From: Antedon bifida
Taxonomy: Eukaryota; Echinodermata; Crinoidea; Comatulida; Antedonidae
Direction: 5' to 3'
DNA: 64,000 bases
NCBI GenBank assembly: GCA_963402885.1
Contig: OY727096.1
Location: 20,627,820-20,691,819, forward strand
Both the position numbers and the translations under genes were made by a program. Of the stretch, positions 30,087 through 63,822 are shown piece after piece. Under the pieces are notes generated by a model that did not search any database, was not told the origin of the DNA, and saw only the letters and a list, made by a program, of their open reading frames with translations. Every line of letters starts with the position of its first letter. Position 1 is the first letter of the stretch.

Positions 30087-32172
30087 TCATACATCTGTTT
30101 CTCTACTGGGAATTTGCAGTCGATCTTCTCCGAATTTGTCAAAGAGAGCATCTCTCAAAAGGTGATCGTCTTCACCTAAAAAGTAAAATGACAATCATCA
30201 GATTTCAAAGGATAACATTAATAATGAATAAAATGTGCACGGTTTTTTTTAAATTTTATTTGTCAAATTGCTAAAGAGACGTATTTACGGATCTCAGGCA
30301 GGCAAACATCAGGTTTCCCCTTCTCCATATTTAGTAGATGGTTTCCTCTTTGGTAGAACAAAATTAAGCTCACCTGACAAAGTTACAATCACAAACTTCT
30401 CTTTATATTCGTCATCAATTAAGTTTCCTGACAAATAGGCGGCATTGCTCTTCACGTTTCTTTTTGTCAAGATTAGTAAACTTAGACATCTGGAACAGTG
30501 TATCAATGATGGCCACATATTCACAAATGACAAAACGTGACTTTAAAAAAATAATATTATTATTATGATCAACTTTAGATATCTTACAGTACTGAGACGG
30601 GATCACAAATCGCGTGACAGATAATAGAAAAATTAACTATGTTGTGGGAATGCGAAGACTAGAGCAAGAGAGGACAAATCCAATAATATGAAATCTTATA
30701 GGTATGAATACTTACTCTTCCTTTTCCATCGTCAATTTTGTAGACTGAAATAGTGTACTTCCTTTTAACACCAGCACGATCTTTGAGCACAGGCGGCAAG
30801 TTACTCTCAAACGTAATCCCCTCATGTCTTTCACTCTCCCCAAGCAAAGAAGGCACTTTGCAGTTCAAAGGAACAATACAATATAATACGCATTTTAACC
30901 TTTTATTTTCCAATTCTTGTTTCCATCTTTCATCCTTCTCTATAGTTCCTTTAAGATCTGATAAAATTATTTTTGTCTACTGTTATAACTATTTATTATG
31001 GAAACCCTAGTATCGAAAAACCGTTTTAAAAACAATATTTAACGAATTTTTGAAAATAAAGTATATTTACATAAAAAGCTACACTTAATTTAGGAATTCG
31101 AAATATGAATAGATTAGCCAAGACCGACAACCATAATATATTAAAAAATACAGTGTACTATAAATAATGTGTGAACCTTTTAATATGATTTCCAAAAATC
31201 CAGTAAAATAACTCCATGCAAGACCCTGTGCGACATTGATGTTACTAGATTCATGAATTTCACTGATCTCAACCACTGACAGTGTCTGTGAAATTCATAA
31301 ACACAATCAATCAAATAACAATTATTAACTTGATGACTTTTGTAGAGAGAATATTCTGAAACAAGTAATTTATACATACCTTAAAGTTAAACATGTAGTT
31401 CGTAATTATTGACACACCGACTGGTGTTATGACGTTCAGGCGATTGGTCGACCAGTGAGTATCAAAAAGATCTTTATTGTCACTTCTCATCCAAAGCACA
31501 ATAGCAATTAAGGCTACAGAACCCATGAAAAATGTTTTCGTCAAAAATACTTGAAAACAATTCTTAAACAGCAGGAGGATTAAGTTATTGTGACGACTTC
31601 GTATGTGCTTATATTCCTCGACCAACACAAAAATGCACAAAACAAATTTTGTAGTTATGGCACCGAAAAACACCATAGGTAGAGCAAATACAGATTTGTA
31701 CATACATCGCAAGTATAAGTCATCTTTGTCCAGCGTTTCCAGTGGGACTGCCATCCACACCAAAAATGAATAAACCATGAATACCAGACCAACAAAATTT
31801 GCTACAATTTGCTTATTCTTGCCACGCTTTTTTGGTACCTCTCCAAAGCCACTCTCAAAACGCTTTGTTACTACATTTCTATTGACAAAATATAATACCT
31901 TTTTTCTTTCGTTTATTTTGTAAATACTAGGCCTACATTATAGTTCATTAGTAAACAGACATTCTTCTGCAGATGTTTTGTATTTTAAGTCTAGTCTACA
32001 ATAAGCAAATGTCAATGTAATAACCGAACAATCTTACAGTTGATTTAATATAAAATATCAACATGCCTAATATTTAAAAATATAATTCGTGTCAATGACG
32101 CAGCTGCTTTAAAATAAATATCCGTTACCGGCCGGGTAACCAAAAAAGACAAAAACCTTACCGAGACGACAT
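30087..32172 (-). pseudogene. STING copy A, six exons, C-terminal frameshift
   Basis: STING is the ER cyclic-dinucleotide receptor of innate immunity. Exons: 32162-32172 (MSSR start), 31380-31878 (four membrane segments), 31177-31285, 30716-30957, 30374-30540, 30087-30175. The membrane exon has the VEEYKHIRSRHNN cytosolic loop, equivalent to human AEELRHIHSRY. The ligand domain begins GLAWSYFTGF and contains KDRAGVKRKY. Exon 5 lacks 8 bp relative to the other copies just after VRKL, giving a stop at 30415-30417; the sequence beyond (FVIVTLSG, then exon 6) stays recognisable in another frame. Compared with human numbering, Y167 is F and T263 is A. It may be a pseudogene or a truncated receptor that ends at the C-terminal part of the ligand domain. 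Splice sites are otherwise intact, so it could be transcribed. Confidence 0.88.
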
Positions 32173-33136
32173 TGTTAAACCTGCCTATATATTACTGGAT
32201 CTGAAAGTATTATAATAAACAATTTCGAATGAACAGAAAGAAAAATAAAATGATCTTACTAGAAACATTTTTGTTGAAAGATAGGTAAAAGTATAGAAAT
32301 AGTGATACTAGTTTAATGACTTACAGGTTCAATGTATACCCACCTTACTGGTATCTAGGTTAGCTATCCTCATAGTCATGCCTACCACATACCTAGCGTA
32401 TATTAATGATGACTATGTCTATATACCCCCTTGCAATGCAATGTATAGCCACTTGCTATTCTGAGCTACAATAAACTACATCCAAACTATAACGTCTTCG
32501 TTTACTTATATTATAAGACATAACATCACAACTAGTAAAAAGGAAAATTAAAAAAGCTGATCATGAACCGAGGTTATGTGTTTTAAATATTTGTTAGCAA
32601 TAAAGAATGAACTAACCTTATCTTTAAAATCTTACTGTAATAACTTTTAGCTCTTGAACATAATATTGTATAGAGTTGTTTAGAGTACAGTACATACATT
32701 ATATCACCGCTATTTCATATGTAAATTATAAACCAACACACAGAATCTAAAATGGAACTTTGTGAATTTCCCTAAAATCATGGTGTTTTTAGAGAATACA
32801 GAGGTTATAATATTGTAACCCCACATTTCATGGTGTTATAATGTGGCGTAAAATCAATAGTTGATACCAATTCATCTAGAAGGGAATTAACAACACAATA
32901 TAATACATTTCTTACATGCATACAAGATTCATATGTTTTGGAATGTGTATTGAAGTTCACCAAAAATGTTTTGAATCTCTTACTGAGGGGAGACTGTCAA
33001 GGGCAATATCGCAGTGAATGTAGTTTGGTATTTAACAATAGAGTAAACCAGGATTAACCTAACATTAAAACTCTATATACATCATTCTAGTGTATTTTCA
33101 ATGAAATAAAAAAATTTCCAAAATTCTTCAATGAGT
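32173..33136. other. Spacer between STING A and B
   Basis: AT-rich, without exons. It contains the 5' flank of copy A and the 3' flank of copy B. Nothing repeat-like was recognised with confidence. Confidence 0.5.
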
Positions 33137-35873
33137 CTAGTCGATTTGCACCCGATTGTTATTGATATTATTAAGAAGAACGTCTCTTAAAAGATTCCCA
33201 TCATCTTCACCTGAAAAGCAATAAAATATATTTATATTTACACTATATTCTAAAAGAACATGTTTGCTGTTTATTTGTTGTAACAAAGATGGTTGGATTT
33301 GGACTTCGATGTGATTTTTGTGACACCGCCCCCACCCCCAATGCCATTTTAATAAATATTCACATAGCTGTCCATCCATAAAATCCTAAAAAGCACATTA
33401 TGATTAGAATGCTTATACCTGATAAAGTCACGATTACGCATTTATTTTGACAATCTTCATTTTCGTCAATCAATTCCTGAAGTTTCCTAACGAGTAAGTG
33501 ACACTGCTCGTCGCGTACGTGTTGTTCAATAGCAGTCCACCGAGACATCTGGAACAGTGTATCAATGATGGTCACATATTCACAAATGGCAAACTTTGAC
33601 TGAAATAAAAATAATTGATACACTATGCAAGTTTACAATATAAAGCTAAAATATTCCCTACACTGTCGCAATTTCTATTAACTCTGGGGTGATTTGTTAT
33701 TCTTTGGTAGACATCAAAATCTTAATCTATAATGTAATACTTACTTCTCCTCTTCCATTGTCAATTCTGTAAACTGAATTAACATACGGCCTGTCTTTCA
33801 CACCTGCACGATCGACATACAAAGTAGGTAGCTTGTCCTCAAAGGTAATTCCTCTGTGTTTTTTAGGACACTCTCCGAGTTTGGAAGGAATTTTACAGTT
33901 CAGTGGTACAATAGCATAAAACTTGCACTGTAGGTTGCCCTTGTTCAATTCTTCTTTCCACCTTTCATCCTTCTCTATAGTTCCCTTAAGATCTAAGGAA
34001 AATAACAATATTCAAACAATTATTCTTTTTGCGCTGTTTTTGTATTTGTCTGAACCTATATGTATTAATTATTTTTGTTTTGTTTTATTTTGTTGTTTTT
34101 TTTCTAGGGAAAATTGTCAACAATTCACAAACCTTTCAGGACAATTGCTAGATATCCTGTGAAATAGCTCCATGCTAGGCCCTGTGCAACGTTGATGTTG
34201 CTAGACTCATGAATTTCACTCAGCTCAACAACTGACAGTGACTATGAAATGTAAAAAAAAGTGCGAAATCAATTATTAACAACTATATTGGATGTAATTT
34301 ACATACCTAAAAATAAATAAAATGTTACAAACCTTGAAACCAAGTGCGTAGTTCGCAATGATTGAAACACCAATTGACGTTATTATATCTGGCCAGTTGT
34401 GTGACCAGTGAATGGTAAAAAGATCTACATCGGCACTTCTCATCAGGAATATGGCACCCAATAAAATAAAAAATCCCACGATGAAATTCATCGTCAAAAA
34501 AACTTGGAAACAATTTTTAAGCAACTGGACGAAGGAGTTATTATGGCGACTTTTCTTGTGTTTGAACTCCTCGAAGAGCACAAACAAGCACATACACAAT
34601 TTGCCCAAGATGACACTGCAAAAGACGATAGGCAGAGAAAACACATGGTTGTAACTACGGATAGTGTATAATTCTTCTTGATTGAGATTTGTCCCATTAA
34701 AATTAAAGTTTCTTTCTTTTATCTTTTGAAGTGGAACTTTAGGCGCCATCCAAACTAAATTACCAACGAATACCAAAATAGCAAAGTATGCCGCGTATCG
34801 TTTCCATTCTCCTCTTTTTTTCGACAACTCTCCAAAGCCAAAATTTTCTGAAGGTGGATATCTATGAAGACAGTTAAAAAAGTGTGATAAAAATCTGTTC
34901 TCAATATCATATATCAATAATTCTTCCAAGAGTCTAGGGCATTTATTTGCACAGCACATATAATGAATTAAAACTAATGTAGACATATTTTCAATTAATA
35001 TTTCTGGAAGCCATTAAAATAATGAACTTACTTTCAGAAGGGAAATTATAAAACGTAACTGGTAATAAAAACTCCTGACGTAACTCATTATAGAACGGAC
35101 AAATTAACAGAAAGTGATATTCATCTTCTATCTCATTCCTATGACATAATTTACATATTCTGTTTCCTTTTAAAACCTCACACCACCTACCCCTTTCAAC
35201 CTCAATATCAAGAATTTCTAGACAAAATTTGGTTAAAAATGGTCTACGGTATATGTTTACATTTTTTTTGCAGACAGATAATTTTCTATATGAATTGTTT
35301 GTTTAAATTTTGTAAAATAAAGTAAACGTGAGTATGTACTAGTGCTCTTAATAAATATTTATTGTTCAATATCCTGTAAACGTAATTTAATTTATAATTT
35401 TGTTATTAATATTTTTTGCAACCATATATTCATATCCATCCATATCTCAAATCGATTAAAAATAATACATGTTTAATTTGTGTAACCCAATATTCTTCAT
35501 CTCTTTCCGCCTTTCTTAGTTGAAACAAATAGCATTTAATAATAATAATAATATCCTGGATTTATATAGCGCCTAATGTTGTGAAACCTCTAAGCGCTGA
35601 ACATTATTACCCTGGTCATTTCTGCATCAAACACGTATGGAAACATACTCCCATATTGCAGCTAGTAATCAGCGCAAAGTTGTGTCTTGATCTAAGCGGG
35701 TACCCATTTATACACCTGGGTATGAAATTCTATTCCTGTCCAAGTTGAAAAGTCTGTACCAGAATTTTAATATGTTAATTAACTAGAACTAAAATTTAAA
35801 AAAATCGTATACTGTAGCTATACAGTTTCATTACAATCAGTATAGAAAATAGGAAAAAACCTTACCCAGCCAT
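33137..35873 (-). CDS. STING1: STING copy B, complete, 382 aa
   Basis: Exons: 35866-35873 (MAG start), 34333-34861, 34133-34241, 33745-33992, 33419-33599, 33137-33210; all in phase, 382 aa, against 379 for human STING. Residues about 25-41, 75-99, 123-143 and 161-179 are the four membrane segments, with the FEEFKHKKSRHNN loop after the second. The ligand domain starts near residue 180 (INVAQGLAWSYFTGYL) and keeps the expected pocket residues: Y163, Y167, R232 and R238 (DRAGVKDRPYVNSVY), E260 and T263 (CEYVTIID), human numbering. It ends shortly after the domain with EDDGNLLRDVLL and the C-terminus RVQID, so it lacks the long vertebrate tail with its TBK1-binding segment. Known for the family: cGAMP-driven signalling and autophagy. 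This is the most canonical copy and the best candidate for a cGAMP-binding receptor. Intron 1 is about 1 kb and holds a LINE fragment. Confidence 0.95.
35030..35330 (-). mobile_element. LINE ORF2 C-terminal fragment in STING B intron 1
   Basis: The minus strand encodes RICKLCHRNEIEDEYHFLL followed by ICPFYNELRQEFLLP, the Cys-His block (CX2C, then HX5C) found after the reverse transcriptase in many LINE proteins. It is open for about 75 codons and has no ends that I can define. Confidence 0.75.
35534..35730 (-). mobile_element. SINE with (ATT)n tail, reverse orientation
   Basis: An AATAATAATAAT run is followed by ATCCTGGATTTATATAGCGCCTAAT. Read on the minus strand this is a retroposon 3' end (GGCGCTATATAAATCC) plus a trinucleotide tail. 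The body contains AAACCTCTAAGCGCTGAACATTATTACCCTGG. It lies in intron 1 of STING B. Confidence 0.65.
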
Positions 35874-37030
35874 TGTTGTTGTAAATGGTCTACTGCTGCA
35901 TGTGGATGCTGTAACTTTATATACTCAGTAGGCTTATGCAGGATAAAAAGAAAACTTAATCCCGAAGAATGAAATACTGAAAAATGATATATGACAAAAA
36001 TACAAGGAACAAGAAATCTAAGGTAAATGTTGACAATGGTTTCCAAAGTAGAAACGGACCTAGGCCTGTCACTTTCTCTTGGCGTAGCGTTATTTATCGA
36101 TCGATGTTTGTACACAGTAGAAGGCTATCTCTTCAAACAATACGGTAGTATCTAAAATTAGATTTTCCACGAGTTTATCGTTAATGTCAGTATAATATTT
36201 CATGCGGACATGACATTGTGAAACGCTGATACAAATTATAATAGGCCATGCTTTATAGGATTATAATACGTTTTAAAAAAAATAATGTATGGCTCCTTAA
36301 AAATAATACAGTAGGCTATAGTCATTTTAAAGATTCCATAACAGATTTTGTTAATTTATATTATTATATTATAAAGCATTGGCATTACAGACCTGAAACA
36401 CCACTCATAAATTGCAACAATTCTTGAATATTTATTTAGCTATTCTATTCAAAAAAATGTATATGCAATAACTACAAATAGATGATAAAAGACGCAGAAC
36501 TAAACTAAACATTATATTTAGTAATTAACATAAATGTTAAAGTTCAAATTTTAGCTAATTTGTTTATCATTTAATCATTCCTTATATTTATGTTTCCAAA
36601 TATTTGGTAAAATATTTACAGGAAAGGAAACCAATCTAACAACTGTGACCTGTGTCACGGTTGAGTCTTGATGAATGAAATGAAATATATATACTCTCTG
36701 TTTTTAAAGTTTATACACTGTTGCAGCAATGTACTTTATATACTGAAAATGGTGATGTTCACTAGAATGAACTGACCCATGAAATGAAAAAGTTAAAAAA
36801 AACCTGGTAGTCATTCACTTAAAACATTGTTTCATAATAATACATACACTATATACAAAATTTAATTTAAATAAAATAAAAAATCACAATAAATGAATCT
36901 ATTCAATTGTAGACAAAAATAATCTACATACAAATTTTAATACAGTATTAACAATCTCCACAGTCTATTAAAAACTCATGATTCTGCCCATCGTGACAAA
37001 TTTATTAGACATTCGCTTCAATACTAGTCA
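35874..37030. other. Spacer between STING B and pseudogene C
   Basis: The part next to B (36120-36180) matches the 5' flank of other copies (the word GTATCTAAAATTAGATTTTCCA). It is otherwise AT-rich with no exon found. Confidence 0.5.
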
Positions 37031-37032
37031 TT

Positions 37033-37830
37033 TATCTGTAGTCGGTTTTCTTTAATTTTGTCAAGAAGAACATCTCTTAATATAGCCGTCATCTTCCCCA
37101 ATAAAATAATTATCAACATGTTTGTTTAGGCAAAGTAAATTAAACAATTTTATAAGATTAAAACAGTTTTAGAATGCATAAAAATTAATGGCTAAGAAAA
37201 AAACACGGGGCTTAATTGAAAGAGGTCGAGTACTTTATCTGAACAAAGGGAAATCAGACTGTTGTCAGTCGAAATGTTTCAAATTTCGCCAAATTGGAAA
37301 CATCACATTATAGTTAAAAAGATTACCTGAAAATAGCACAGGCTTGAATTGTTCTCGCTACTTTTTTAAATTAATTACATAAGTTTTTTGACAAACAAGC
37401 GGCCGCTGCTCTTCATGTTTTTGTGGTCAATATTAGTGCAAAGAGGCATCTTTAAAGGTGTATCAATGCTGGTTACATACTCACAAATTGCATATTGAGG
37501 CTAAAAGAAGAAGATATTTTTACATTAAATAAATGTTATCCTTAATAAAACATAGACAGATAGTATTTAGGTTTTTTACATCAACATTTTTTGATAGATT
37601 TAGTCACTGTTGATAATGTTTGATAGAATAAATAATTCACTTGCATTGCCTTTTTCATTTTCAATTTTGTAAACTGAATTAACATAAGATCTGTCTTTCA
37701 CAACTGCACGATCGACATACTAAGTAGGCATAGGCAGCTAGCTCTCATAGGTAATTTCTCTATGTTTTCACTCTCTCCAAGTTTTGAAGAAGGAATTTTA
37801 CAGTTAAGAGGAAAATACCATAATATTTGT
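37033..37830 (-). pseudogene. STING copy C, 5'-truncated pseudogene
   Basis: Three decayed 3' exons remain. The DRAG-type exon (37630-37815) is cut off at about 37820 and carries an in-frame stop in place of V/Y just before the conserved DR. The CEYVT exon (37390-37497, QYAICEYVTSIDT) runs into a stop after VKKLM. The last exon (37033-37097) has lost the AG of its acceptor and one base, giving a frameshift after EDDG. Transmembrane and GLAWSY exons are absent; the sequence to the right, to 38290, is unrelated. It resembles copies D and B most (PLCTNID versus PLCTDID in D). Confidence 0.9.
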
Positions 37831-38297: not shown

Positions 38298-40407
38298 CTA
38301 ATCCAATTGCACCCCAACATTTTGGATATTGTCAAGAAGAACGTCTCTTAAAAGAGGGTCTTCTTTGCCTAAAAAGCAAAAAAATATTTATTTATATTTA
38401 AATATATTAGGTATTTCAGTTTAATTAGGCCTATCCTTTACTTTGTGCTGGTTTTCAGTACAGATGGGTTAATCTTTACTATGCAAACATTTCCATTTAA
38501 TAATATCGTTTGCATAGGCTTACAATAATGTATAGAAAAGTTTGTCGCTCTGAGACACAAATACAAAACAGTGCAAAGTACAACGATTCAACAATCTCGA
38601 CAAAACAAACAAAGTCATTCTCGTACTTCAGTGTCCTAAACATCGGTATAAAGCTGTTACGGAAACACTAATTTTAATAAATGTTAGGTTCAACCTAAAA
38701 AGCATGATTTAGAAACATTACCTGACAAAGTCACAATTACGCATTTATTGCGACAATCTATATCTTCTTTAATTAAGTCACGAAGTGTTCTGACTAGTAG
38801 GCGGCACTGTTCTTCACGTTTTTGTGGGTCAATATCAGTGCAAAGAGGCATCTGGAACAGTGTATCAATGATGGTTACATACTCACAAATGGCCAACTTT
38901 GACTGAAATGAAAATGTTGACATTATTAACTGCTACAACAAGCTTATAGGATGCAAGAATAGCACAAGGTACTTTGCTGCACTGCAGACATTTCTATTAG
39001 CATTGACTAATCACATAAGACATGTGAATAAACCAACGTCTTAAACTATTCACTTACAACTCCTTTTCCATTGTCAATTTTGTAAACTGAATTAACATAC
39101 GGCCTGCCTTTCACACCTGCACGATCAACATACAGAGTAGGTAGCTTGCCTTCAAAGGTAATTCCTTTGTGTTTAATGGGACAACCACCAAGTTTGGAAG
39201 GAATTTCACAGTTCAGAGGCACGATAGCATAAAACATGCACTGTAGGTTACCCTGGTTTAATTCGGCTTTCCAGCTTATACCATTGGGGTCATCATCTCT
39301 ATTTTTCTCTATAGTTCCTTTAAGATCTAAGGAAAAATGATAATACAGTTGATGTTGAAACTTAATGAGTAGTGCCTTTTATCAATACACAGTTCAGTTA
39401 AAAAAATACACACTATTTGATAAATTTGTAATTAATTACTTAATTTATTTTTGTGAAAATTTAATTTACAAACCCTTCAGAATGATTTTTAGATAGCCGG
39501 TGAAATAACTCCATGCTAATCCTTGTGCGACATTGATGTTGGTAGATTCATGAATTTCACTAAGCTCTACAACTGACACTGACAGGGAAATGAACAAATA
39601 TACACACACAAATTTACAATAAATCAATTTAGACTATTCGCTCGCTATAAGGTATGGGGTCGACTTGGTGACTTCAATGATCAATTCAATAGTGAACCTA
39701 CATTGAGTACATTGTAAACTTAATATTAGTTGCAACCATTTACCTTGAAACCAAATGCGTAGTTGGTAATGATTGAAACACCAATTGACGTTATGATGTT
39801 CGTCCAGTTTAGTGACCAGTGATTAATGAAAAGATCTTTATTCATCATCCAAAATATTCCCATAATGAAAATCAGTAAAATACAAAATCCCACAAACAAA
39901 TTCGTCCGAAATACATGGAAACAGTTTTTAAAGCAATTGGCGGTTGAGTTATTGTGGCGAGATTCTATGTGCGGCCATTCCTCGACGAACACAAACAAGC
40001 ACATAAACAATTTTGTAAAGAAGGCACTGGCAAACACGATTGGCAGAGAAAATACATGGTTGTATTTACGGTTGGATTGTAGCTCCTCTTCATCATCAAA
40101 ACTTATCCCGATCAGCAGAAAAATAATAACGAATACAATAATAACAAAGTATGCTGAATAGTTTCGTCTCGATTCGCCTCGTTTTTCTGGCAACTTTCCA
40201 AAGCCATAGCTAACTGAAGATGGATTTCTATCAAAGTAAAGTGAAAATGTAATTTCAATCTATTCTCGTTATTTATAATGCAGAATTTCGTATAGGCCTA
40301 GTTTTGCAATACAGTAAACAGATTATAAATGCGTACCCCACTAATCGTAATTACATTATCATATTTTACAATAAGTATAGAAAATACGGAAAACCTTACC
40401 CAGCCAT
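38298..40407 (-). CDS. STING1: STING copy D, 373 aa, one altered splice acceptor
   Basis: Exons by homology: 40400-40407 (MAG), 39744-40227, 39474-39582, 39058-39326, 38722-38902, 38298-38368. Membrane segments follow the copy B pattern, with the VEEWPHIESRHNN loop. Pocket residues are conserved: SYFTGY, DRAGVKGRPYVNSVY, CEYVTIID. The DRAG exon has a seven-codon insertion, rich in Asp, near its start. The C-terminus is KEDPLLRDVLLDNIQ...GVQLD, without a long tail. The oddity is exon 3: where the other copies have AG before the exon, D has TG. The nearest AG is 4 bases inside the exon, which alone would shift the frame. A weak GT 7 bases beyond the normal exon 2 donor would restore frame, giving GFKVNVSVVEL. 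So D is either spliced unusually or non-functional; otherwise it shows no damage. Confidence 0.85.
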
Positions 40408-40514
40408 TGTTGTAAAAATTAGACTAGACATACAATATCTGATAATATCCTTCAGACGAATACCTTTATGCGGTCATATGTTGACATGACGCTTTGGCCT
40501 ACAGTCTCGTTCAT

Positions 40515-40522
40515 ATGCAAAT
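40515..40522. promoter_or_regulatory. Octamer ATGCAAAT upstream of STING D
   Basis: A perfect octamer about 108 bp upstream of the D start codon, inside a block (CTACAGT-TCGTTCAT-ATGCAAATTA) that is also found upstream of E and G. ATGCAAAT is the classic POU/Oct binding site. Function here is inferred from conservation between copies, which also share ancestry. Confidence 0.4.
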
Positions 40523-41430: not shown

Positions 41431-41433
41431 GTT

Positions 41434-42385: not shown

Positions 42386-44684
42386 TTATACATCAGTACT
42401 CATTGACAGTCGAGTTTCTCCGCCCTCGTTGTTCTCTTTATCTCTTTTTTTATAAAGAGCATCTATCAGAGGGTCGTTTTTTTCACCTAAAAATGACATT
42501 GATTAGCCAAGATTTCAAAAGCCTGTTGAACTTAATATTACCGGTTAATTCTTTATGTGTCAAATAGCTCAACATATAGGAGTTTTTTTTGTGTAGGTGT
42601 AGAGAAGGCCTACGTTACGCAATCTAGGCAGACAAAATATAGTGTTACTACCCTTCTCCATCTTTGGTACTCAAGGCTTACCTGACAAAGTTACAATCTC
42701 GCACTTTCCTTTCCATTTCTCGCAATTGTCGTCAATTAATTCCTGAAGTGTCCTTATGAACAGTAGACATTGCTCTTCACGTTTCTTTTGTTCAAGTTTA
42801 ATAAAGTTAGTCATCTCAAACAGCGTATCGATGATGGTCACATATCCACAAATAACAAAGAATGGTGGCTAAAAAAATAAGATTTCTTATAGTCACACTT
42901 AATTAATAGACTGATTTAAAGACTATGACTAAATTAAACTATTTTATTGTATATGCAAATACCAGTCAAATATTTATTTTAATGTCTTTAGTAGAAGCTG
43001 CGCACATGCACTTCTAAAAGTCTATACTCACTTCGTTGTTTTTTTCAATTTTGTATACTGGAATAGTGTACTCCCTTTTCATACCAGCACGTTTTTTTAA
43101 CACAGGTTGCAACTCACCCACACGCGTAATCCCTTCATTTTCATCTTCAATCAAATCAGGAACCTTGCAGTTCAGAGGTACAATAGCATAGAATACACAT
43201 TTTAGTGTTTTGTTTTTCAATTCTTGTTTCCATCTTACATCGTTCTCGACCGTTCCTTCAAAATCTGATGGAAAAGAATTGTTTTGTATTACTATAACTT
43301 TTTCTTGTGAAACACGAACCTTACAACCAATCAATGATATAAAATGATTGATTGGTGTTATTCCCATGATTTGCAAAGATATAAAATAAGAATAATACTA
43401 AATAATACTAATACTAAAAACAGTACATTTTTAAGTGAAATTAAGAATTAGTCAAAGACTAAAAAATCAAAGATTAGTCAAAGACTAAGAAATTAAAGAT
43501 TATTCAAAGACTAAGATATTAAAGATTAGTCAACAACTAATAAATTAAAGATTAGTCAAAGACTAAGCAATTAAAGATTAGTCAATGACTATAAGAAATT
43601 AAAGATAAGTGAAAGACTAAGAAATTAAAGATTAGTCAAAGACTAAGAAATTAAAGATTAGTCAAAGACTAAGAAATTAAAGAGTAGTCAAAGACTAAGA
43701 AATTAAAGTTAATTAGTAAAAATACTACTTTATAATGGTTGATAAATACTTTTTAAAATGATTTTCAGATATCCAGTTAAGTAACTCCATGCTAGGCCCT
43801 TTGCAACATTGGTATTACTAGATTCATGAATTTCACTGAGCTCAACAACTGATAGTGTCTGTGATATTTATAAATAAAATTAATCAACAAATATATTTTA
43901 ACTGGTATCAAACTTTATTTATATTATACTACAGCCTATACGTACCAACCTTAAAATCAAAAATGTAGTTTGTAATGATTGAAACACCGATTGCTGTTAT
44001 GGAATTCAGACAGCTGGTGACGAAGAACTTGTAAAAACTATCTGTACCGCTACTTATTACCAACATCACAATAACAATGGAGAATACTACTCCTAAGACG
44101 AAGTTTCTTGTCAAAAATACCTGGAAACAGTTCCTAAATAGCAGCCATCTGTTACCATCATACCGACTTTTCGTGTGATTCTGTTCCTCGATCAGCACAA
44201 AAGAGCAAAAAAAACATTTTGTAATGATGGTACAGACCAACATCACTGGCAGAGCAGATAGAGAGTTATACATACATTGAAAGACTATGTCACCTTCGCC
44301 TATCGTTTCCACTTTGATAATCATCCACACCACACACAAATAAATCATACATAATATACCAACAATAATTGCTGCAATTTCCTTGGCCTTGCCTCGCCTT
44401 TTTGGTATCTCTCGACACCCAGAAGAAGAAGAATTCCTATTGATAAATAATTCCGTAATTGGTACCGTATTGGGGGTTGGTGAATAACCATTGGAATGGT
44501 GAAACAATTACAATTATATTTTACTCTGACATAGAAGAGCCTAGATCATGGTGCTGACATTATCAGCAGTTTCCACTTAATTTAATATTAACTCCACTAT
44601 TGTAAGAGGCCTACATCATATTAGATGAGAGCTAGCTAGCTAGATTAAAGCATAGAATAATTATGAGAAACCTTACCCAGCCAT
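42386..44684 (-). CDS. STING1: STING copy E, complete, 374 aa
   Basis: Exons: 44677-44684 (MAG), 43950-44436, 43750-43858, 43032-43264, 42682-42868, 42386-42486; all in phase. The N-terminus has a short serine run, then a basic PKRRGKAKE stretch before the first membrane segment. The loop is IEEQNHTKSRYDG. The ligand domain has GLAWSYLTGYL and KKRAGMKREYTIPVYKI. The exon 5 motif reads CGYVTIID, so the residue equivalent to human E260 is glycine; R232 is kept, and the R238 region is one residue shorter. The C-terminal exon is the longest in the array (33 residues) and ends GGETRLSMSTDV, with a pLxIS-like RLSMS. It is nearly identical in plan to copy G. Intron 3 contains a 26-bp minisatellite. 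A 3.2-kb transposon begins 68 bp upstream of the start codon, which may affect expression. Confidence 0.93.
43440..43708. repeat. 26-bp minisatellite in STING E intron 3
   Basis: About ten copies of AAAGATTAGTCAAAG-ACTAAGAAATT. Each unit contains the inverted repeat TTAGTC-AAA-GACTAA, so each copy can form a small hairpin. The homologous intron of copy G carries a longer, more varied version. Confidence 0.92.
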
Positions 44685-53275: not shown

Positions 53276-56200
53276 TTATAGATCAGTTTCTATTGGCACT
53301 CGAACTTCTCCGTTCTTCTTATAAAGAGCATTTATCAAAGGGTCGTTGTCTTCACCTAAAAAAATTACATTGATTAGCCCAGATTTCAAAAGCATGTGAA
53401 CTTAATATTACCGGTTTATTTTTGTATGTATAAAATTAGGCCATAGGAGGTTAGTGTTAAGGTTCGCTTAGGTCGATACGGAACTCAACTCTAAAGGGAA
53501 GGTTTAGAAGGCCTATGTTACGCAGGCAGACAAACGGATGGTTTAGCCTTCTTCATAATTGGTAGGCGCCTGGTAGAATTCCATCCTTAATTCTTAAAGA
53601 GATCGCTCTTGATCTAAGACCCCTAACAGATGTTTGAACTGCTCGTGGGAAGGAAATCTCCCCTCCCAATGGAAATCAGCTGTGACTGTTCCTATCCCCA
53701 AGGTAACTCCACCAAAATTGATAAATTAGGACCTATCTCTCTAACATCTGCCTTTGCAAAAGTGGCAGAACAATTTGTGTGCGAGTGAATGGTTTTTGAT
53801 ATCCGAAGTAGGTCCGGTTAAATGTAAGACAGTATGGCAATGTCAAAGGTGTGTCAACTGCCCACTACTTTAGTGCGTCTAGTTCATGATATGTGCGCTG
53901 CAGCTGAGGAAACTAACAACATTGAGACGGTTGTTCTTCTTATGGACTTTACTAAGGCCTTTGATCGAAATTGAGCACAACATCGTAATCAATAAAATCA
54001 TCGAGATTGGTGTCCGTAGGTCGATCTTCCAATGGATTCTTCAGCTACAGACGTGTAAAGTATAATAATTCCCTTTTTAATGTTATCATGTTAAAAGCTG
54101 GTGTCCTCCCAAGAGACCAAGTTAGGTTCATTGCCTTTCAAATAATGATTGATGCTATTAATGGCGCTAATTCAAAAGCTTTAAAATATGTTGATGACCT
54201 TTCAGTATATGAAAATCGTAAAGTAAACCTTAATGAGTTCCACGACTGGTGTAAAAATAATGCAATGGATCTTAAACATTCTAAATGCCAGACTCTACAA
54301 ATTTGTTTTTACTCCGTAATAGGAACCAAAATCACAATTACCATCCTGAACTGCCCGCTTTAGCAACAGCAGCCCAATCCCCTATCCGCCTGCCTAATGC
54401 ATTGTGTTTTTTTGATATTTAATCTTTTTATGTATTTCAAACATTGGTGTTTTTTATATCATTAAGGACCTGTATTAAAAGGTTACACGCAATCTGGCCA
54501 TTGGCCACATGTTGAACGTTGCTATATTGTTTTTTTGAATAAAAGTATATAAATAATAATGTTAACAATAATTTCAAAAGTGAAATAAAAATGTTAGGCT
54601 CACCTGACAAACCTACAATCTCGCATTTTGCTTTGTAATATTTGTCAATTAATTCCTGAAGTGTCCTGACAAACAGTAGGCATTGCTCTTCACGTTTTTT
54701 TTCTTCAAGTTTAATATACTCAGACATCTTAAACAGTGTATCGATGATGGTCACATATCCACAAATAACATACAGTGGTGGCTAAAAAATAAGATTTATT
54801 ATTTTGCTACTCGGAGACTGCGGCAATTAACAAACTCATAGAATAATAAATAAAGACGTATACAACATAAGTTCTGGCTTAAATAGTTTAATTAGTAAAT
54901 GAACATTCACCCATGTAAAACTGCACATAAAAGTCATAAGAAAATATAAGTTATATAGCAATAATTCTAAGTAAGCACAACAGGGATGCTCAGAGAAAAA
55001 TAGCCCTATTGCCATAAGTGTCTAAATATTGGGCGGGAGGGAGGGAAAATTGTCTTCAACTTAATTTGATCGTGTTAACAGAGAGGGTGCTTGTAAAAAC
55101 TGTATTACTGACAGTTGATTCTCAACGTTTGTATTAATTAATAATCATAAAAAATATAAACGTCTTAGTGGTGTATCGTTACATGTACCTTACTATTCCA
55201 ATCGACTATGACAGGGACAATTTTAAAAAAGTATTAAAACGTAAATGTTTACTGTATTTAGTGGTATACTATTGATAGGCCTATAAAACATTAAACACAA
55301 TATTTCGTTACTGTTCCCATCCTCTTCCCCATCCCTCAACTCTAATGTTATATACAAAACACAAATTGGGTTTGTTTAAATGAGTTCAAATAAAAAATTT
55401 GGACTCATTTTTAATTCTTCGGAAGTAGGTCTAATTCCCAGGGTGCTAATTTTCGTTGACTACATAAATCATCGTGTCTATTTATTCGTTTCTGTAAACG
55501 ACAATGTACTATATAGTCCTGCGGTACGTACATTTGAAATCGCCAGTTTTTTTTTTACGCTGAAATTACTGTGTATTCGAGAACCATCTGTGGACACGGA
55601 CGACCTAGATGGTACGCGAGCAATAAATTCACTTTTAAAAATAATCTGTATTAATTTTTAAAAATAAATATTAACTGAAGAAAATGCAAACATAGGTTTT
55701 TATAGCAATACTAAAAGTTTTTAAATTAATCAATTAAAACTAAAAACCTACAAAATATGATTCCGTTTATACTTTATTAACTATATATATATATATATAT
55801 ATAACAAATAATCCTCAATTAATAATAATCAATATATATATATCTTGTTCTTTACACTTCGTCTCGTTCACTGCGTTCATCTAATAAACTTCTCCTTCAT
55901 GTTCCTAAATGGAAACTTCAGACATCGTGCATTTTCCTGTGCAGCACCCATTTTGTGGAATAAACTGCCAATCGACATAAAGACATCTGAAAACATCAAC
56001 ACTTTCAAAACACGACTAAAAACCCATTTTTACACAGAGGCATTTCCTGCTTAACTTTGTCAAGCGCCTTTGAACATTATTATGGATACTGGCGCTATAT
56101 AAATCTGATTGATTGATTGATTAACCAAAATGGTTGACATTTTTCGGGGAAAAGAATCATCAAAGACAGAAAGTGAAGAATCTCTCTCTCCAATTATTAC

Positions 56201-59200
56201 ACATTATTTAGGCCTACTATTAAATATTGTTTTATTACCTACATACTTTATTTTTTACATTAAACATTACTTTGTTTAATAAAAGAAACCATTTGGTTGG
56301 TACTTGTTCTGCTTGCTCTAGAGGTGTTTCTGGGACACCGCATTGGATACACTGTGAGGTAATGGAAGTAAATTGGCGCTTGAAAGCAGGCAGGGGAATG
56401 GGGAATCCCCGTTGGCGACGCTAATTGCTGGTTCGAGGAGCGCGATCGCGCAGGCGCTCCTTAAAAATGATGGACTGATCGCTTTCGGAAATTCCCTTTT
56501 ATTGTGTAAAAAGAGTGATGGTCACAAAGAGGAGACCTACGCAACTTGGATCAAGGAGGAGTTAATTAGAACTCTATGGTGGCTGATTTCCGCCAAAGAA
56601 AAAAATTATTTTATAATAATACGGCGTTATAACGCCCTATAGGGCGTTATAACGCCGTATTAGGTCGTTATAACGCCCTAATTATACAATCCGTTCACAC
56701 GTACATGCGCATGCGTAGTACATCAACAAACCCAGAGCCATAAAGAGTTGCGACTTTGAATGGATTGAATCAATTTGTTGAAAGGTTTTTGTTAAAACAA
56801 TAATAACATTATTTTGCGGAAATCAGTCACCGTAGAACTCCCTATGTAAGCAGGCCTAGAATAACCATGGAGCTATAGCTCCATGGAATAACCATAACAC
56901 TCTACACATCACGCGTGGCGAACGTCCCCTACGAAAGCAACACATGCGCACATAGCTAAAATGAACTAACTTTTTCTGCGGGGCTAACTATAGTCAGAGA
57001 GACGGCAAATGAAAAATCACGAATTTTCTTTGTAAAATAAATTTGAAAATTGAAAATACACTGGAAACGGCGGGATTACTAGCTATTTATATGTTCTTGC
57101 TATTTAGTAATAAAAGTAACATTTGCCTGCTGGATATACTACAGAAAATGCAAAAAATCATAAAAAAGGCTAGGCCTATGACTAGGCTAGTCTGGTTTGA
57201 AAGGGCACTTCAGGAAAAGAGGGGTTCGTTCGAACCCTACGAACCCCCCTGGCTACGTACGGGCTTGAAATCCATGCGTTTTTGGTTTTTTTTCTTTTAG
57301 TGTTGTTTATTGGCGATGTGTTAGTACAACTTTGCTCCCATTGCAGTGCACGGTAGTGGAGCCCTTGGATTAGCCTTGGGTGGAATTGGTGCTGATGCTC
57401 AACATCTGCCATGAATGATGAAGTATCTGCGTATACTTTCATGGGGAGCATCGTTGTATTAAAGGTGATTTTTGTACCTATCAGTCTCTTTGGAGACTCT
57501 TCCAGGGAGTCCTGGTTGAATCATTTTTTTAAATCTCAGTTTCATGTGGGTAAGTGAACATTCATTCTTCCTTGTTTCCTGCACTTTGGTGGGCTGCCGC
57601 GGGCTATTTTTCTCTGAGCATCCCTGTTGTGCTTACTTAAGAATTGGAAAAGTATTGCTATATAAATTATAACTTATATTTGCTTATGACTTTTATGTGC
57701 AGTTTTACATGGATGAATGTTCATTTACTAATTAAACTATTTAAGCCAGAACTTATGTTGTATGCGTCTTTATTATTCTATGAGTTTGTTAAAGATGTAT
57801 TGTTCCTTGAAACACAAAAAAATGAAAGTCAAAATATTCTAAATTTAAATTGGCCATATCAAAGTAATATTAAAGTTATGCACTTTAAGTCGAAAATTTG
57901 AGCCAAAAACAACAAATTTACGTAATTAACAGGTAAATTAATTTGATTACATTTCGTCTGGAAAATCGTCGTGAGCGAAAGTAAACAAAGATTTCAAACC
58001 ATGAGTATGCATTATGCATGATGCTAATTAGGATTGTTTACAACCCGTCACGGTTGAGAAGGTGTTCTCACACAGATCGCGAGGAAGTTTTATGATTATG
58101 CATACAGAGTAGCCAAACAAGCGCGTTGCATTATGAGATATGTTTTGATCGAAAACTTTCACTGGAAGTCAAAGTTATTTTTTGAACAAAAAAACGTCTG
58201 TATTTCAGTTAAATGATTTTTTTTTCGACTAATTTTTGGTGAAAGTTAATAACTATTATGATACTTCAAAATGACCCACTTTTTTCGAAATCTTTTTTTT
58301 TTATATTTTTTTTGGAATTAGTCAAAGGGACAATACTTCTTTAATTGCCGCAGTCTCCGAGTAGCAAAAATCAAGAATTGGGTTGGGAACACAATTCTAT
58401 TTTGAGAACGGAGAGGGCGGGATTTTCGACCTCTTTGATCAAGCACCCTCTCTGTTAACACGATCACATTAAGTTGAAGACAATTTTCCCTCCCTCCCGC
58501 CCAATATTTAGACACTTATGGCAATACGGCTATTTTTCTCTGAGCATCCCTGTTGTGCTTACTTAGAATTGGAAAACTATTGCTATATAACTTATATTTG
58601 CTTATGACTTTTATGTGCAGTTTTACATGGGTGAATTTACTAATTATTTATTTATTTCATTTGTTTATTGGTCATCACTTTTTATTATCAGTGGCACACA
58701 CTGTCGTTAGTGGTGCAACCAAAATAAAACAATAGCACAATTGAGCAAAATATTGTAAGTAAACAAAACAAAAGCAACATAAAAATATATTATATATATA
58801 CATATTTAAAGCTATACTCCAAACTATAAAACATGGAGGGTAGTTCCATGTATAAACTAAGCACAAGTAAATAAAATAAAGAAAAATTTGTTAAAAATAC
58901 AAATAAAACAATATACTTGGTGGTAGGTAAATAGGTCACATAATTTTGTAAAACCTGTTCCTATAGACCCAAGAAGTGGTCAGATATTGCTTACAATGTT
59001 GGTCAAAAATAAAAAATAAATTGTCAAGGAACAAGTGGTGTTTATATACAATAGATTCCTTATCTTCTTCACAGGTAGAGTGGAGCCCGCAGTAATTTAG
59101 TTTGTTTTTAAGTTCTATATACAACTCATATCTTATTTGTGAAAGACCAGCACATTCCAAAAGAAAGTTGCATAATTTACACATGGCAGTAAATTCAGCT

Positions 59201-61678
59201 GACCATGACAATTTTCTTCCTTCGAGTTCAAGGGAGTTTGTACGGGCTTTTCAAACTTTAGTTCTCCTTTATATTTTACATAATCACTTAGGAATGACTT
59301 TGATTTTGATTTAACATACCATTTCTTATAGTCATTACTCTTGTTCTCTGTTTTAAATTGTTTTAACCAAGTGGCATCAGGTTCAGTGTTTCAATAAATT
59401 ACACCTACGAAGATTGCCTTTTATAATACATAACCACTTCCATTTTAAATTATCCATCTAGTATTCGCCATCTTTTTAAGTCTATTAGGTCTAAAGTTAT
59501 TATAAAAGGACGTTAAAGATTTCCAACCTAATTCGCCATACAAAGCTTCATTTGCAACATTTCTGGGGCTTTTTAATATAATTTTAGCCATTAAATATTG
59601 TTTAAGATTTCCGATTTTTCTGTTGATGTCTTACTGTTACAAAACCACAATGAACAAGCATAATTAATAGTTGGCAATTCAATAGTATTCCATAGTAAAT
59701 TTCCATAGTATATTCTGTTGAAATCATCTTGATCATTAATAATAGATTTTATGTAGGGCTTAAGCAATAATTCTATAACTTTTTTTAATAATTTCATCTA
59801 TAATAGTCACACTTACATAATATATACTAATTCAAATTAAACTATTTAATGGTATGCAAATATAGCAGTCGAATATTTATTTTTAATAGTAGAAGCTAAA
59901 CTAGGCAGACCAGAGCACATGCACTTCTTAAAGTCTATACTCACTTCGTTGTTTTTTTCAATTTTGTATACTGGAATATTGTACTTCCTTTTCATACCAG
60001 CACGATTTTTGGACACAGGTTCCAACTCACCCGCAAGCGTAATCCCTTCATTTTCCTCTTCAATCAAAGAAGGAACTTTACAGTTCAGAGGTACAATAGC
60101 ATAGAAAACACATTTTAATTTTGTTTTCCATTTTACATCGTTCTCGATCGTTCGTTTAAGATCTGATGGAAAAGATTTGTTTTGCATTATTATTATTATT
60201 ATTATAACATGATTTATTGGTGTCATCCCCATTAAAGATTTTATCAAAGACTATGAAATTAAAGATTAGTCAAAGACTAAGAAATTAAAGATTAGTCAGA
60301 TACTAACAAATTACAGATTAGTCAAAGACTAAGACATTAAAGATTAGTCAAAGACTATGAAATTAAAGATAGTCAAAGACTATGAAATTAAAGATTAGTC
60401 AGATACTAAAAAATTAAAGATTAGTCAAAGACTAAGACATTAAAGATTAGCCAAAGACTATGAAATTAAAGATAGTCAAAGACTATGAAATTAAAGGTAG
60501 TCAAAGACTATGAAATTAAAGGGAGTCAAAGACTAAGATATTAAAGACTAGTCAAAGACTAAGATAATAAAGATTAGTCAAAGACTATAAAAGTAAAAAT
60601 TAGTCAGATACTAAGAAATTAAAGATAGTCAAATACAAAGATATTAAAGATGAGTCAAAAACTACGATGTTAAAGATTAGTCAAAGACTGATGGCAAGAC
60701 CCAAAATACAGTGTAGCAAAAATACTATTATATAAATACGATAGATAAATATACCTTCTAGAATGATTGTCAGATATCCAGTAAAGTAACTCCATGCTAG
60801 GCCCTCTGCGACATTGATATTACTAGATTCATGAATTTCACTGAGCTCAACAACTGATAGTGTCTGTGATATTTAAAAATATAATTAATCAAAAAATATA
60901 TTTTAACTAGTATCAAACTTTATTTATATTATACTATAGCCTATACGTAACAAACCTTAAAATCAAAAATGTAGTTTGTAACGATTGAAACACCGATTGC
61001 TGTTATGGAATTCAGACAGCTGGTGACGAAGAACTTGTAAAAACTATCTGTACCGGTACTTATCACCAAAATCACAAAAACAACGAAGAATACTAATCCC
61101 AAGACGAAGTTTCTTGTCAAAAATACCTGGAAACAGTTCTTAAATAGCAGACGCTTGTCACCATCGTAACGACTTTCCGTGTGATTTTGTTCCTCGATCA
61201 GCACAAAAGAGCAAAAAAAACATTTTGTAATGATGGCACCAAACAAAATCACTGGCAGAGCAGATACTGAGTTGTACATACAGTGAAAGAATATGTCACC
61301 TTCGCCAAGCGTTTCCACTTTGATAGTCATCCGCACAACACACAAATAAATCATACATAATATACCAACAATAATTGCTGCATTTTCATTGGCCTTGCCT
61401 CGCCTTTTTGGTATCTCTCGAAACCCAGAAGAAGAAGAATTCCTATTGATAAATAATGCCGTAATTGGTACCATAATATTGGGGGTTGGTGAATAACCAT
61501 TGGAATGGTGAAACAATTACAATTATATTTTACTATAGCATAGAAGAGCCTGACGTTATCAGCTCCTTCCACTTAATATCAATACCACTCCACTTAATAT
61601 CAGCCCCACTATTGTAAGAGGCCTACATCATAATATATAGTCAGCATAGAATAATTATGAGGAACCTTACCCAGCCAT
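53276..61678 (-). CDS. STING1: STING copy G, complete, 359 aa, with two inflated introns
   Basis: Exons: 61671-61678 (MAG), 60956-61442, 60755-60863, 59945-60162, 54604-54781, 53276-53355; all phases agree and there is no stop in 1080 nt. The membrane exon closely matches copy E (PKRRGKANE, IEEQNHTESRYDG). The ligand domain has GLAWSYFTGYL, KNRAGMKRKYNIPVYKI and CGYVTIID; as in E, the residue equivalent to human E260 is glycine. The C-terminus is EDNDPLINALYKKNGEVRVP then IETDL. The exon 4 product lacks about five residues (between WKTK and LKC) found in E. Intron 4 is 5.16 kb, against 167 bp in E, because of a composite insertion, and intron 5 (1.25 kb) holds a LINE fragment. Splicing across 5 kb is normal for animals, but expression of the full transcript is unproven. 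Confidence 0.9.
53560..54560 (+). mobile_element. LINE fragment with reverse-transcriptase motifs in STING G intron 5
   Basis: The plus strand shows, with frameshifts, PIPKVTPPKLINKLGPISLT, VVLLMDFTKAFDRIEHNIV and the catalytic block KYVDDLSVYENRK, then HDWCKNNAMDLKHSKCQ. The end (NYHPELPALATAAQSPIRLP) and the UTR word GCAATCTGGCCATTGGCCAC match the MEI1-intron LINE at 9058. It is internally deleted and dead, opposite in sense to STING G. Confidence 0.85.
55845..56130 (+). mobile_element. LINE 3' end with TGATT repeats
   Basis: Encodes FRHRAFSCAAPILWNKLPID then IKTSENINTFKTRLKTHF to a stop at 56052-56054, the final block of CR1/L2-type ORF2. The UTR ends GGCGCTATATAAATCTGATTGATTGATT, the typical CR1/L2 3' end with a short tandem repeat. 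Confidence 0.85.
56569..56840. mobile_element. 272-bp MITE with internal 46-bp perfect palindrome
   Basis: Ends GAACTCTATGGTGGCTGATT and the complement of GAGTTCTACGGTGACTGATT match at about 21 of 25 positions. Inside, 56617-56662 is a perfect 46-bp palindrome built from CGGCGTTATAACGCC, followed by one more GGTCGTTATAACGCC half. No coding capacity. Confidence 0.8.
59050..59800 (-). mobile_element. Decayed LINE ORF2 fragment
   Basis: The minus strand has NRIYYGNLLWNTIELPTINY followed by ACSLWFCNSKT near 59620-59720, and MCKLCNFLLECAGLSQIRYE near 59110-59180. These are two blocks of a reverse-transcriptase C-terminus in the right order, in different frames and broken by stops. Confidence 0.65.
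60237..60692. repeat. Expanded 26-bp minisatellite in STING G intron 3
   Basis: About 18 variant copies of the AAAGATTAGTCAAAG-ACTA-GAAATT unit also found in copy E, with shorter (about 24-bp) sub-variants lacking TT. Its position in the intron matches the E array, so it predates the E/G duplication and later changed length. Confidence 0.92.
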
Positions 61679-61739
61679 TGTTGTACATACACTGGATACA
61701 CAATAATACTGTATATAAAAATGAGGGAAAAAAAATAAC

Positions 61740-63053
61740 AAGATATTAATAAATGCTATTATGAGAGAAATCGAGGATTGAACGTTGGAACGATACTGAC
61801 CCTTTTCTTGACGAATTGCAATTGGCGTTGTGCCGGTTTTACAGGATCGAGTATAATGTTGACAATGGCCTACAGTATCGTTCAATATATGCAAATTAGT
61901 ATCTAAAATTATCTAAATTGGATTTTCCATAAGAATATAATATCGTTATGTTTCATGAGGACAAAAGCTTTAGAAAAATGAGTAATGTGACACGCGCATT
62001 ATTACATGATTTCGATCGGCGCGCGCACTGTCATTAATAATCGGCCCATTTTATACAGCTCTTTTTAACACTTGTTGTGAGGTTCTTTCATGTCATATGT
62101 GGCTCTTTAGGCCTATATGTTCAATTATATGTGTAAATCGAACCCGAAATCCATTAAAATACCGGTGCTTTCATGGTTGGTGATTCAAATAATGACTCTT
62201 TTTAACACTCTAGGATATTACTGTTCGTAATTTTAAAAATCATTTACTTTGTATTCCTTTTTATCAACAATCATTCTGCACAAAATATGATTATTATTAT
62301 TATTATTTGGCAAATATTTACATTATAGACATGAACACCAAATGATTAATATTTGTTTTTATTTATTCTGTATATCAATAATACTATAATGATAAATGAT
62401 GCAGAATTACTAACTAAACATTTTATTAGTCACTAATATAAAATGTGCATTTAACTATATACTAACTGTTAATTTGATTAACCTTTAATCAGTACTTTTC
62501 AAGTATCTATATATATATATAAAATGCATAAAAGGAAAACAATAGGACATGTATACTGTACTTATATTGTTATAAAATATTGTATTTAGTCCATTTATTT
62601 TGACGGTGTTTTCATACTAATAGGCCTATAATATGATACTGAAATTATTGTTAGTTCTAAGAATTGCAAACAAAAATTGAAAAAAAACCAAGTCACCAAA
62701 ATCAATTCAGAAATTGGTGACTTGTCACTATTCAGCCTTGATAACAAAATATAAATAAATAAAAATACCCTGTTTAAAGTTAAGACCTGTATATACTGTA
62801 CTTAGGCCTATATTGTTATAAAATATTGTATTTAGTCCATTTATTTGACGGTTTTTTCATAATAATATGATATGATACTGAAATTATTTTTAATTCTAAG
62901 AATTGCAAACAAAAATGGAAACAAAAAACCCCTCACCAAAATCAATTCGAAAGTAGACAAAAAACACAATAACAAAATATATGGTCAGGTCATGGGCACT
63001 TGTGACGAGGATTACTACTGCTAACCATAATAAGTTTTCAATATGGTCAACTT
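61740..63053. repeat. Spacer between STING G and H
   Basis: 61740-62400 is the 5' flank of G and matches 47998-48480 beside E. 62080-62230 matches the D-E spacer at 40970-41130. 62440-62990 repeats the CTTTAACG/TTTGACGG blocks and the AGTAGACAAAA-ACACAATAACAAAATAT word also found just downstream of F (50080). It shows the repeat order of the ancestral unit. No gene. Confidence 0.75.
61889..61896. promoter_or_regulatory. Octamer ATGCAAAT upstream of STING G
   Basis: Perfect octamer 211 bp upstream of the G start codon, in the block TACAGTATCGTTCAATAT-ATGCAAATTAG. Confidence 0.4.
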
Positions 63054-63822
63054 CTAGCCACTAATTTGTACCCGATTTTCTTTGATTTTATCAAGAAGGA
63101 CATCTCTTAACAGAGGGCCATCGTCTGCACCTGGAAGAAAAACAATTAAACATATTTTTTAGGCAAAGTCAATTAATCAATTCTAGAAGATTAAAGAAAG
63201 ATCAGATATATGATTATACAAAGAAGATTGTATGTTCTTAAATAAAACAAAGTCACGCATACAATTTCAGGGCAAACACACTGGTTTGTGTTTACCTGAA
63301 AAAGGCACAATGACGCATTTATTTCGACAATCTTCGTTGCCATCAATTAGTTCCGTAAGTTTTCTGACGAGCAAGCGGCACTGATCATCACGTTTCTGTG
63401 CATCAAATTCAGTATACAAAGACATCTGGAACAGTGTGTCAATGATGGTCACATATTCACAAATGGCATAGTGTGACTGAAAGAAAAGGCTCTATTGAAA
63501 TATTTTTAAAAAGTAACCACTTCCTAAGTATCCATTTATTATATAATATGAACTAGCACTACAGTACAGATTTTACTTACAACTCCTTCTTCATTTTCAA
63601 TTTTGTAGACTGAATTAATGTACCTCCTGGTAACACCAGCACGAGGTTCTTCAACAACCGGTAAATCACTGACAATTGTAATTCCTCTGTGTTTGTCGCT
63701 GTCTCCAAGTTTGGAAGGAATGCTACAGTTCCGAGGTATAATAGCATAGAATTTGCACTGCAGGTTCCCCTGATTTAATTCACGTTTCCAGATTTCATCC
63801 CTTTCTATAGTTCCTTTAAGAT
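63054..63822 (-). CDS. STING1: STING copy H, 3' part only (runs off the window)
   Basis: Three exons are visible: 63581-63822 (DRAG type), 63296-63476 (CEYVT type) and 63054-63130 (C-terminal). They are in phase and undamaged, so copy H is probably an intact gene whose membrane exons lie beyond 64000. The pocket reads PRAGVTRRYINSVYKI, with R232 kept and an arginine near R238, and CEYVTIID, with E260 and T263 kept. Two differences from B and D are YAIIPRNC in place of YAIVPLNC and a proline in place of the Asp before R232. The tail is GADDGPLLRDVLLDKIKENR then VQISG, ending in a pLxIS-like RVQIS. It is the intact counterpart of pseudogene F. Confidence 0.88.

Follow-up and report, generated by a model that had tools for sequence, protein, structure and literature searches.

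How many STING receptors can one animal genome hold, and do tandem copies of such a receptor all read the same signal? Most animals channel the signals of all their cGAS-like enzymes through one STING. It is a single gene in 88% of animal genomes, corals and oysters being named as exceptions (PMC9980059). The question is raised by a 64,000-nucleotide stretch of the crinoid Antedon bifida, hereafter the window, which spans positions 20,627,820-20,691,819 of contig OY727096.1 (C9) in an assembly of 315.6 Mb and 27 contigs. A first-pass annotation of the window, made from sequence alone, had described an array of eight STING loci lying head to tail on one strand. Exon-by-exon comparison placed all eight (copies A to H) on the minus strand between window positions 30,087 and 63,822, as described, but eight is not the full count: copies I and J follow past the window end, and the array as a whole comprises ten STING loci in 48 kb (C9 20,657,906-20,705,887). 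An array confined to the window was thus ruled out by the two copies downstream of position 64,000. Frames are intact in six of the ten loci, namely B, E, G, H, I, and J. The array is probably a family of STING receptors that expanded in tandem within this lineage.

Membership of the STING family, which had been read from motifs, was confirmed by profile searches of the spliced products. All six intact proteins matched the PF15009 ligand-binding domain with 105-133 bits (cut-off, 27; E-values of 3e-30 to 1e-38), and PDB STING chains were matched at 3e-37 by B and at 3.5e-27 by E. The corresponding check on the transmembrane family, PF23417, placed four of the six above its cut-off of 28.1 bits (B, H, I, and J, with 29.5-40.5 bits), E and G falling marginally below. 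The motifs that the annotation had listed, i.e., the membrane exon, GLAWSY, DRAG, and CEYVT, were all seen, but the last two are not uniform, since CEYVT reads CGYVT in E and G and CEYVA in A, and DRAG is replaced by KRAG in E, by NRAG in G, and by PRAG in both H and F. The PF15009 match stops 5-7 residues short of the C terminus in B, H, I, and J; in E and G, the distance is 29 residues. Judged from these match ends (the TBK1 motif of the tail was not searched by tool), the intact copies carry no sign of a vertebrate-type C-terminal tail, an element that arose only in vertebrates (PMC6723221). No TIR fusion was found in the gene models of the intact copies, in which exon 1 codes for three residues and nothing precedes the membrane domain; a start upstream of the modelled exon 1 may exist.

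The array appears to hold all of the STING sequence in the assembly. STING was not found outside it either by a six-frame genome search with PF15009 (15 matches, all inside the array) or with copy E as a genome-wide query (35 matches at E-values up to 10, again all inside), in searches that are blind to introns, score only the best candidates, and could let a very diverged STING escape. As an array control, 18 exon queries taken from the array were run by tblastn. At E<1e-3 they yielded 169 matches in 30-79 kb of the window frame (self-hits included), none of them on the plus strand, and no match in window positions 1-30,000, in 79-132 kb, or in any of 10 two-base-block shuffles. At a looser E<0.5, the first 30 kb gave four weak matches (E 0.06-0.34), and one weak plus-strand match (0.39) was found at 62.5 kb.

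The six-exon plan attributed to the copies was borne out by the exon models, from mini-exon 1 through exon 6. Coding starts in exon 1, a mini-exon of 8 nt for M-A-G; its sequence is ATGGCTGG followed by GTAAG in five copies (B, D, E, G, and H), whereas I and J have ATGCCTGG. The membrane domain is encoded by exon 2 and the GLAWSY helix by exon 3; most of the ligand-binding domain comes from exons 4 and 5, and exon 6 supplies the short end of the protein with the stop codon. The intact copies have open frames of 359-382 residues, interrupted by GT-AG introns with matching phases. As had been claimed, B, E, and G are complete and give an intact spliced frame each. In window coordinates, with exons listed from 1 to 6 on the minus strand, copy B (33137-35873; 382 aa) has its exons at 35866-35873, 34333-34861, 34133-34241, 33745-33992, 33419-33599, and 33137-33210; copy E (42386-44684; 374 aa) at 44677-44684, 43950-44436, 43750-43858, 43032-43264, 42682-42868, and 42386-42486; and copy G (53276-61678; 359 aa) at 61671-61678, 60956-61442, 60755-60863, 59945-60162, 54604-54781, and 53276-53355. 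Copy H, called intact as far as it could be seen, proved complete (382 aa) once the sequence past 64,000 was read: exons 4-6 lie within the window on the minus strand (63054-63822; exons at 63581-63822, 63296-63476, and 63054-63130), and exons 1-3 lie on the same strand beyond it (64,040-65,089; exons at 65082-65089, 64280-64811, and 64040-64148). Copies I (66,758-69,268 in the window frame) and J (73,260-78,068), both beyond the window, have intact frames.

The remaining four loci, all on the minus strand, fall short of an intact spliced frame to different degrees. Copy D (38298-40407; exons 1 to 6 at 40400-40407, 39744-40227, 39474-39576, 39058-39326, 38722-38902, and 38298-38368) is nearly complete, as first reported: every exon is open, but exon 3, as judged by eye, has no adjoining in-frame AG acceptor. 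It may be rescued by an unusual splice. Copy A (30087-31878) has exons 2-6 at 31380-31878, 31177-31285, 30716-30957, 30374-30540, and 30087-30175; the frameshift ascribed to it was located in exon 5, and no exon 1 resembling that of the other copies was found. Copies C and F had been called dead, which agrees with the stops present and exons missing in both. C (37030-37811) is a remnant of exon 4, 5, and 6 pieces with stops and shifts, and F (50205-51268), whose nearest relative is H, retains a partial membrane exon followed by damage spanning exons 3-6, including a damaged exon 3, a frameshift in exon 4, and a stop at the end of exon 5. Among the intact copies, G stands out in that its exons 4 and 5 are separated by an intron of 5.2 kb; its stretched introns may stem from mobile-element insertions. 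Over 23 bases from ACAACAATGG into the intron, B, D, and E are identical, G is 1 base off, and H is 4 off, and the surroundings of exon 1 are nearly identical in B, D, E, and G (35866, 40400, 44677, and 61671) despite strong divergence elsewhere. A reverse-transcriptase fragment (53989-54363, plus strand; PF00078 under its cut-off) lies in the exon 5-6 interval of G, on the strand opposite to the gene.

Do the intact copies share one ligand pocket? In the alignment, human residues S162, Y163, Y167, R232, R238, Y240, T263, and T267 are retained in all six. Glu260 is present in the STINGs compared (human, Nematostella, and PDB chain 8efn) and is retained in B, H, I, and J as well as in the broken copies A and D; it is Gly in E and G. 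E260G and I235M occur in E and G only, and N242I occurs in these two plus A. We treated E260 as a contact residue and not as a family-defining criterion. In the 2'3'-cGAMP complex, the guanine base touches Glu260 and Thr263, and on the adenine side there is a main-chain carbonyl contact only (PMC9780328); E260 is likewise listed as a contact for cGAMP (porcine) and c-di-GMP (human), not for c-di-AMP (porcine) (PMC7288161). Because Glu260 is replaced by Gly, these published contacts suggest that E and G would read guanine less or not at all. It is possible, although we hold this only tentatively, that two receptor classes coexist in one genome, the E/G class reading a cyclic dinucleotide built from adenine or pyrimidine bases (for example, a cUA- or cAA-like one) produced by some of the cGAS-like enzymes (cGLRs). 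That B, H, and I would form the standard, guanine-reading class beside it is an equally tentative part of the proposal. If true, this would amount to base-specific wiring of parallel cGLR-STING channels inside one array. The earlier suggestion, a broader range of cyclic dinucleotides sensed through the array, is supported in part only: the pocket change of E and G (Glu260 to Gly, Asn242 to Ile, and Ile235 to Met) speaks for it, but the residues of the 3'3' switch do not. A 3'3' preference of a coral STING has been tied to Asn at the S162 position and to a Thr-to-Ser change lower in the pocket (PMC9980059), and both positions are unchanged in 6/6 intact copies, which keep a pocket base of the 2'3' type.

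From the sequence we infer the following origin and function for the array copies. Repeated local duplication probably built the array, and some copies then decayed. The six intact copies are putative cyclic-dinucleotide receptors of the endoplasmic reticulum membrane that lack the vertebrate C-terminal tail, and they would be expressed and working. The cGLRs would sense nucleic acids and produce cyclic dinucleotides; copies of the B/H/I type would bind 2'3'-cGAMP-like ligands, and the E/G class, with its phosphate and stacking contacts kept and the Glu260 guanine contact gone, would accept another base composition or show lower selectivity. Output may run via TBK1, NF-kB, or autophagy-type signalling.

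Any such account presupposes that the copies are real; the rival reading is that the assembly has set uncollapsed haplotypes in tandem. A two-gene block is indeed repeated in order (E-F and G-H), and some short stretches are closer than the long ones, including a self-comparison block of 328 bases at 94.5% and upstream stretches of ~168 bases at 97.6% (I/J) and ~255 bases at 95.7% (H/I). However, in the self-comparison of 29-79 kb, blocks of at least 1 kb are only 77-91% identical, the highest being I/J (91%) and E/G (86%). The synonymous substitution rate (dS) is 0.39-1.29 in every pair except I/J (0.07-0.11) and E/G (0.11-0.16), and a second STING locus was not found on any contig. The divergence between copies argues strongly against a haplotype artefact, and together with the genome-wide searches it led us to reject this explanation, the chance of which we put as very small. 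The relationships among the copies were examined in a full-length maximum-likelihood tree of the eight readable copies, with human and Nematostella STING as outgroups. The eight copies group together, and I+J, E+G, and A as sister of E/G are all supported; the mutual branching of B, D, H, and the I/J pair is not resolved. No inner branch within the array is longer than the E/G stem (0.60). In a tree of the ligand-binding domain, the I/J fork falls slightly below full support (88/98). For B-I, B-J, H-I, and H-J, the dS of the ligand-binding domain is about half of that of the membrane part (B-I, 0.54 versus 1.20); gene conversion of the 3' exons may have occurred in B/H versus I/J.

If the copies are real, they could still be the outcome of birth and death that brought no new function: the copies would be largely redundant, retained for dosage or left to drift, and the E/G changes would reflect relaxed constraint. 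Damage or a missing splice site is seen in four of the ten loci, which suits such a process, and the pocket-base residues are identical across the six intact copies. The ratio of nonsynonymous to synonymous substitution rates (dN/dS) is 0.83 for the ligand-binding domain of E/G, a value that can fit relaxed constraint as well as adaptation, and 0.82 for the membrane domain of I/J, whose ligand-binding domain gives 0.45. In J, the residue aligned with Gly166 is lost along with other odd changes; this copy may be drifting despite its open frame, so that there may be fewer working receptors than the six intact frames suggest. On the other side, the 13 older pairs of intact copies have a ligand-binding domain dN/dS of 0.27-0.50, indicative of purifying selection, and E and G share E260G, N242I, and I235M yet keep R232, R238, Y240, and T263. 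We regard birth and death without new function as a doubtful, if possible, account of the array.

The high E/G ratio and the changes in J are among several observations that weigh against a set of working receptors with diverged ligand specificity. The published 2'3'/3'3' determinants show no difference between copies, and the placement of R238, counted above as retained, depends in E, G, and H on a one-residue alignment gap. PF23417 scored 28.0 bits in E (3e-6) and 25.0 bits in G (2.5e-5), just below the curated 28.1, and its genome-wide search returned a single match, under the cut-off, in copy B. A promoter scan over the 500 bases preceding exon 1 in seven copies, with single-base shuffles as the control, found no interferon-stimulated response element in any; there were one kB-like match in H (0.06 expected) and two IRF half-sites in B (0.74 expected), the remaining counts were near expectation, and no motif was common to all copies. 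The extra copies might also act mainly independently of ligand, through a membrane channel or autophagy, or serve as heterodimer decoys. The lack of a vertebrate-type tail in the intact copies would suit such roles, and so would the pattern of dN, which in 27 of 28 pairs is higher in the membrane part than in the ligand part (A and D are among the copies paired; the exception is E/G). In the same 27 pairs, however, the ligand part is also the more constrained by dN/dS, and the main contacts are kept, which makes a chiefly ligand-independent role improbable. A tandem STING receptor family specific to the lineage remains our preferred reading.

That the array pairs with an expanded set of cGAS-like enzymes had been proposed as well, and such a set is present at the sequence level. 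A genome search with PF03281 (Mab-21) gave 53 matches, 40 of which were covered by a reading of motifs (13 were left out). The catalytic motif GS..EG..[DE]FD is carried by 16 of these 40 open reading frames (ORFs), and each of the 16 also has a third acidic motif, either IDIVP, IDLVP, or VDVVP; a looser pattern gave 17, the additional one (L053) being a chance match. C9, the chromosome of the STING array, carries 13 of the 16 at a distance of 4-5 Mb from the array: ten fall within 15.71-15.85 Mb, and another three within 16.47-16.52 Mb. The other three of the 16 are on C12, C1, and C7, one each. On C9, 11/13 frames are open over 327-374 codons from stop to stop, and the remaining two run to 275 and 237 codons. 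Isoelectric points were calculated as 8.3-9.6 for ten aligned C9 cGLRs and as 6.0 and 4.9 for L035 and L059, respectively. These last two carry the cGLR motifs late in long frames (760 and 969 codons), with long N-terminal parts joined. Twelve further ORFs of the 40 represent a second Mab-21 type with the pattern GS..(E/D)G(M/I)P......D(V/I)D (typically GSxxEGMP......DVD); these single ORFs of 372-721 codons, mostly ~700, are partly clustered (L040-L042, L044-L046, L048, L050, L052-L054, and L056; C9 28.49-28.74 Mb, C14 20.90 Mb, and others). The doubtful L053 aside, no third acidic motif was found by pattern in these 12 ORFs. The remaining 12 of the 40 show neither motif type. As for downstream genes, IRF exons were found on C11 and C13, and two TBK1_CCD1 coiled-coil matches on C15 and C16.

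The combination of STING and cGLR expansion is a known phenomenon, which appears here in a new lineage and with an unusual pocket class. The coral Stylophora pistillata similarly has seven STING paralogues and 42 cGLRs, and pocket residues vary among the paralogues (PMC9980059). Its ligand-binding domains are 54-75% alike, compared with 49-92% among the intact copies here. In A. bifida ten loci, six of them intact, form one 48-kb tandem array; the genomic arrangement in the coral is not described in the available part of that paper. The Ser-to-Asn and Thr-to-Ser changes of the coral Sp-STING3 are absent from the array, where instead Glu260 is changed to Gly in E and G. According to the same source, bivalves such as Crassostrea virginica have 3-10 STING genes with >20 cGLRs, an expansion alike in kind in a different phylum; a further point of difference is that the gene models of the array carry no TIR fusion. 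With human and Nematostella STING, the array copies share the membrane and ligand-binding domains by homology and keep S162, R232, R238, Y240, and T263, whereas the ligand-binding domain is 32-40% identical, E260 and N242 are changed in E and G, and, relative to human STING, the vertebrate-type C-terminal tail is missing. In sea urchins, cGAS and STING are reported missing (PMC13043383). Set beside the array described here, this reported absence suggests that STING may have been lost in one echinoderm branch and have radiated in another. The ten tandem loci would add a deuterostome lineage to the list of STING expansions, and the array offers a natural comparison set of related receptors, of which some have the guanine contact and others lack it, and in which the base specificity of STING is directly testable. 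In the part of the open-licence literature on STING and cGLR expansion and on echinoderm STING that was covered, we found nothing on crinoid STING or on a tandem STING array.

Two further observations concern the surroundings of the array and the assembly. Exportin-like exons (window 23197-25463, minus strand; Xpo1 Pfam under its cut-off) flank the array on the low-coordinate side. We take them to be exportin-6-like, and they may provide a synteny anchor for the STING array. The mitochondrial contig of the assembly (C27; 15,844 bases) contains a COX1 frame that requires TGA to be read as an amino acid, Trp under code 9. With this code, four of the five AAA codons in COX1 stand opposite Asn of PDB COX1 and the fifth is at or beside a gap, and the four AGR codons stand opposite Ala, Gly, Ala, and Thr, none opposite Arg. 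Code 9 (AAA Asn, AGR Ser, and TGA Trp) is common to echinoderms and flatworms, and a cnidarian or bivalve origin of the DNA was rejected on the strength of this code. ND1, ND2, and ND6 are encoded on the strand opposite to COX1, COX2, COX3, ND3, ND4, ND4L, ND5, and CYTB (names other than COX1 were read from frames); the presence of genes on both strands argues against a flatworm mitogenome, and sea stars have ND1 and ND2 inverted likewise. The light strand of a feather star mitogenome carries ND1, ND2, and ND6 (PMC10013537), the same three genes as on C27, and C27 is similar in length and in A+T content (73.2% over 9 kb) to a crinoid mitogenome of 15,887 bases with 72.73% A+T (PMC8820819). On these features, C27 would be assigned to an echinoderm with high confidence and to a crinoid with moderate confidence. 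Between ND4 and ND5, C27 also contains a putative ND4L with an overlapping tRNA-Arg call.

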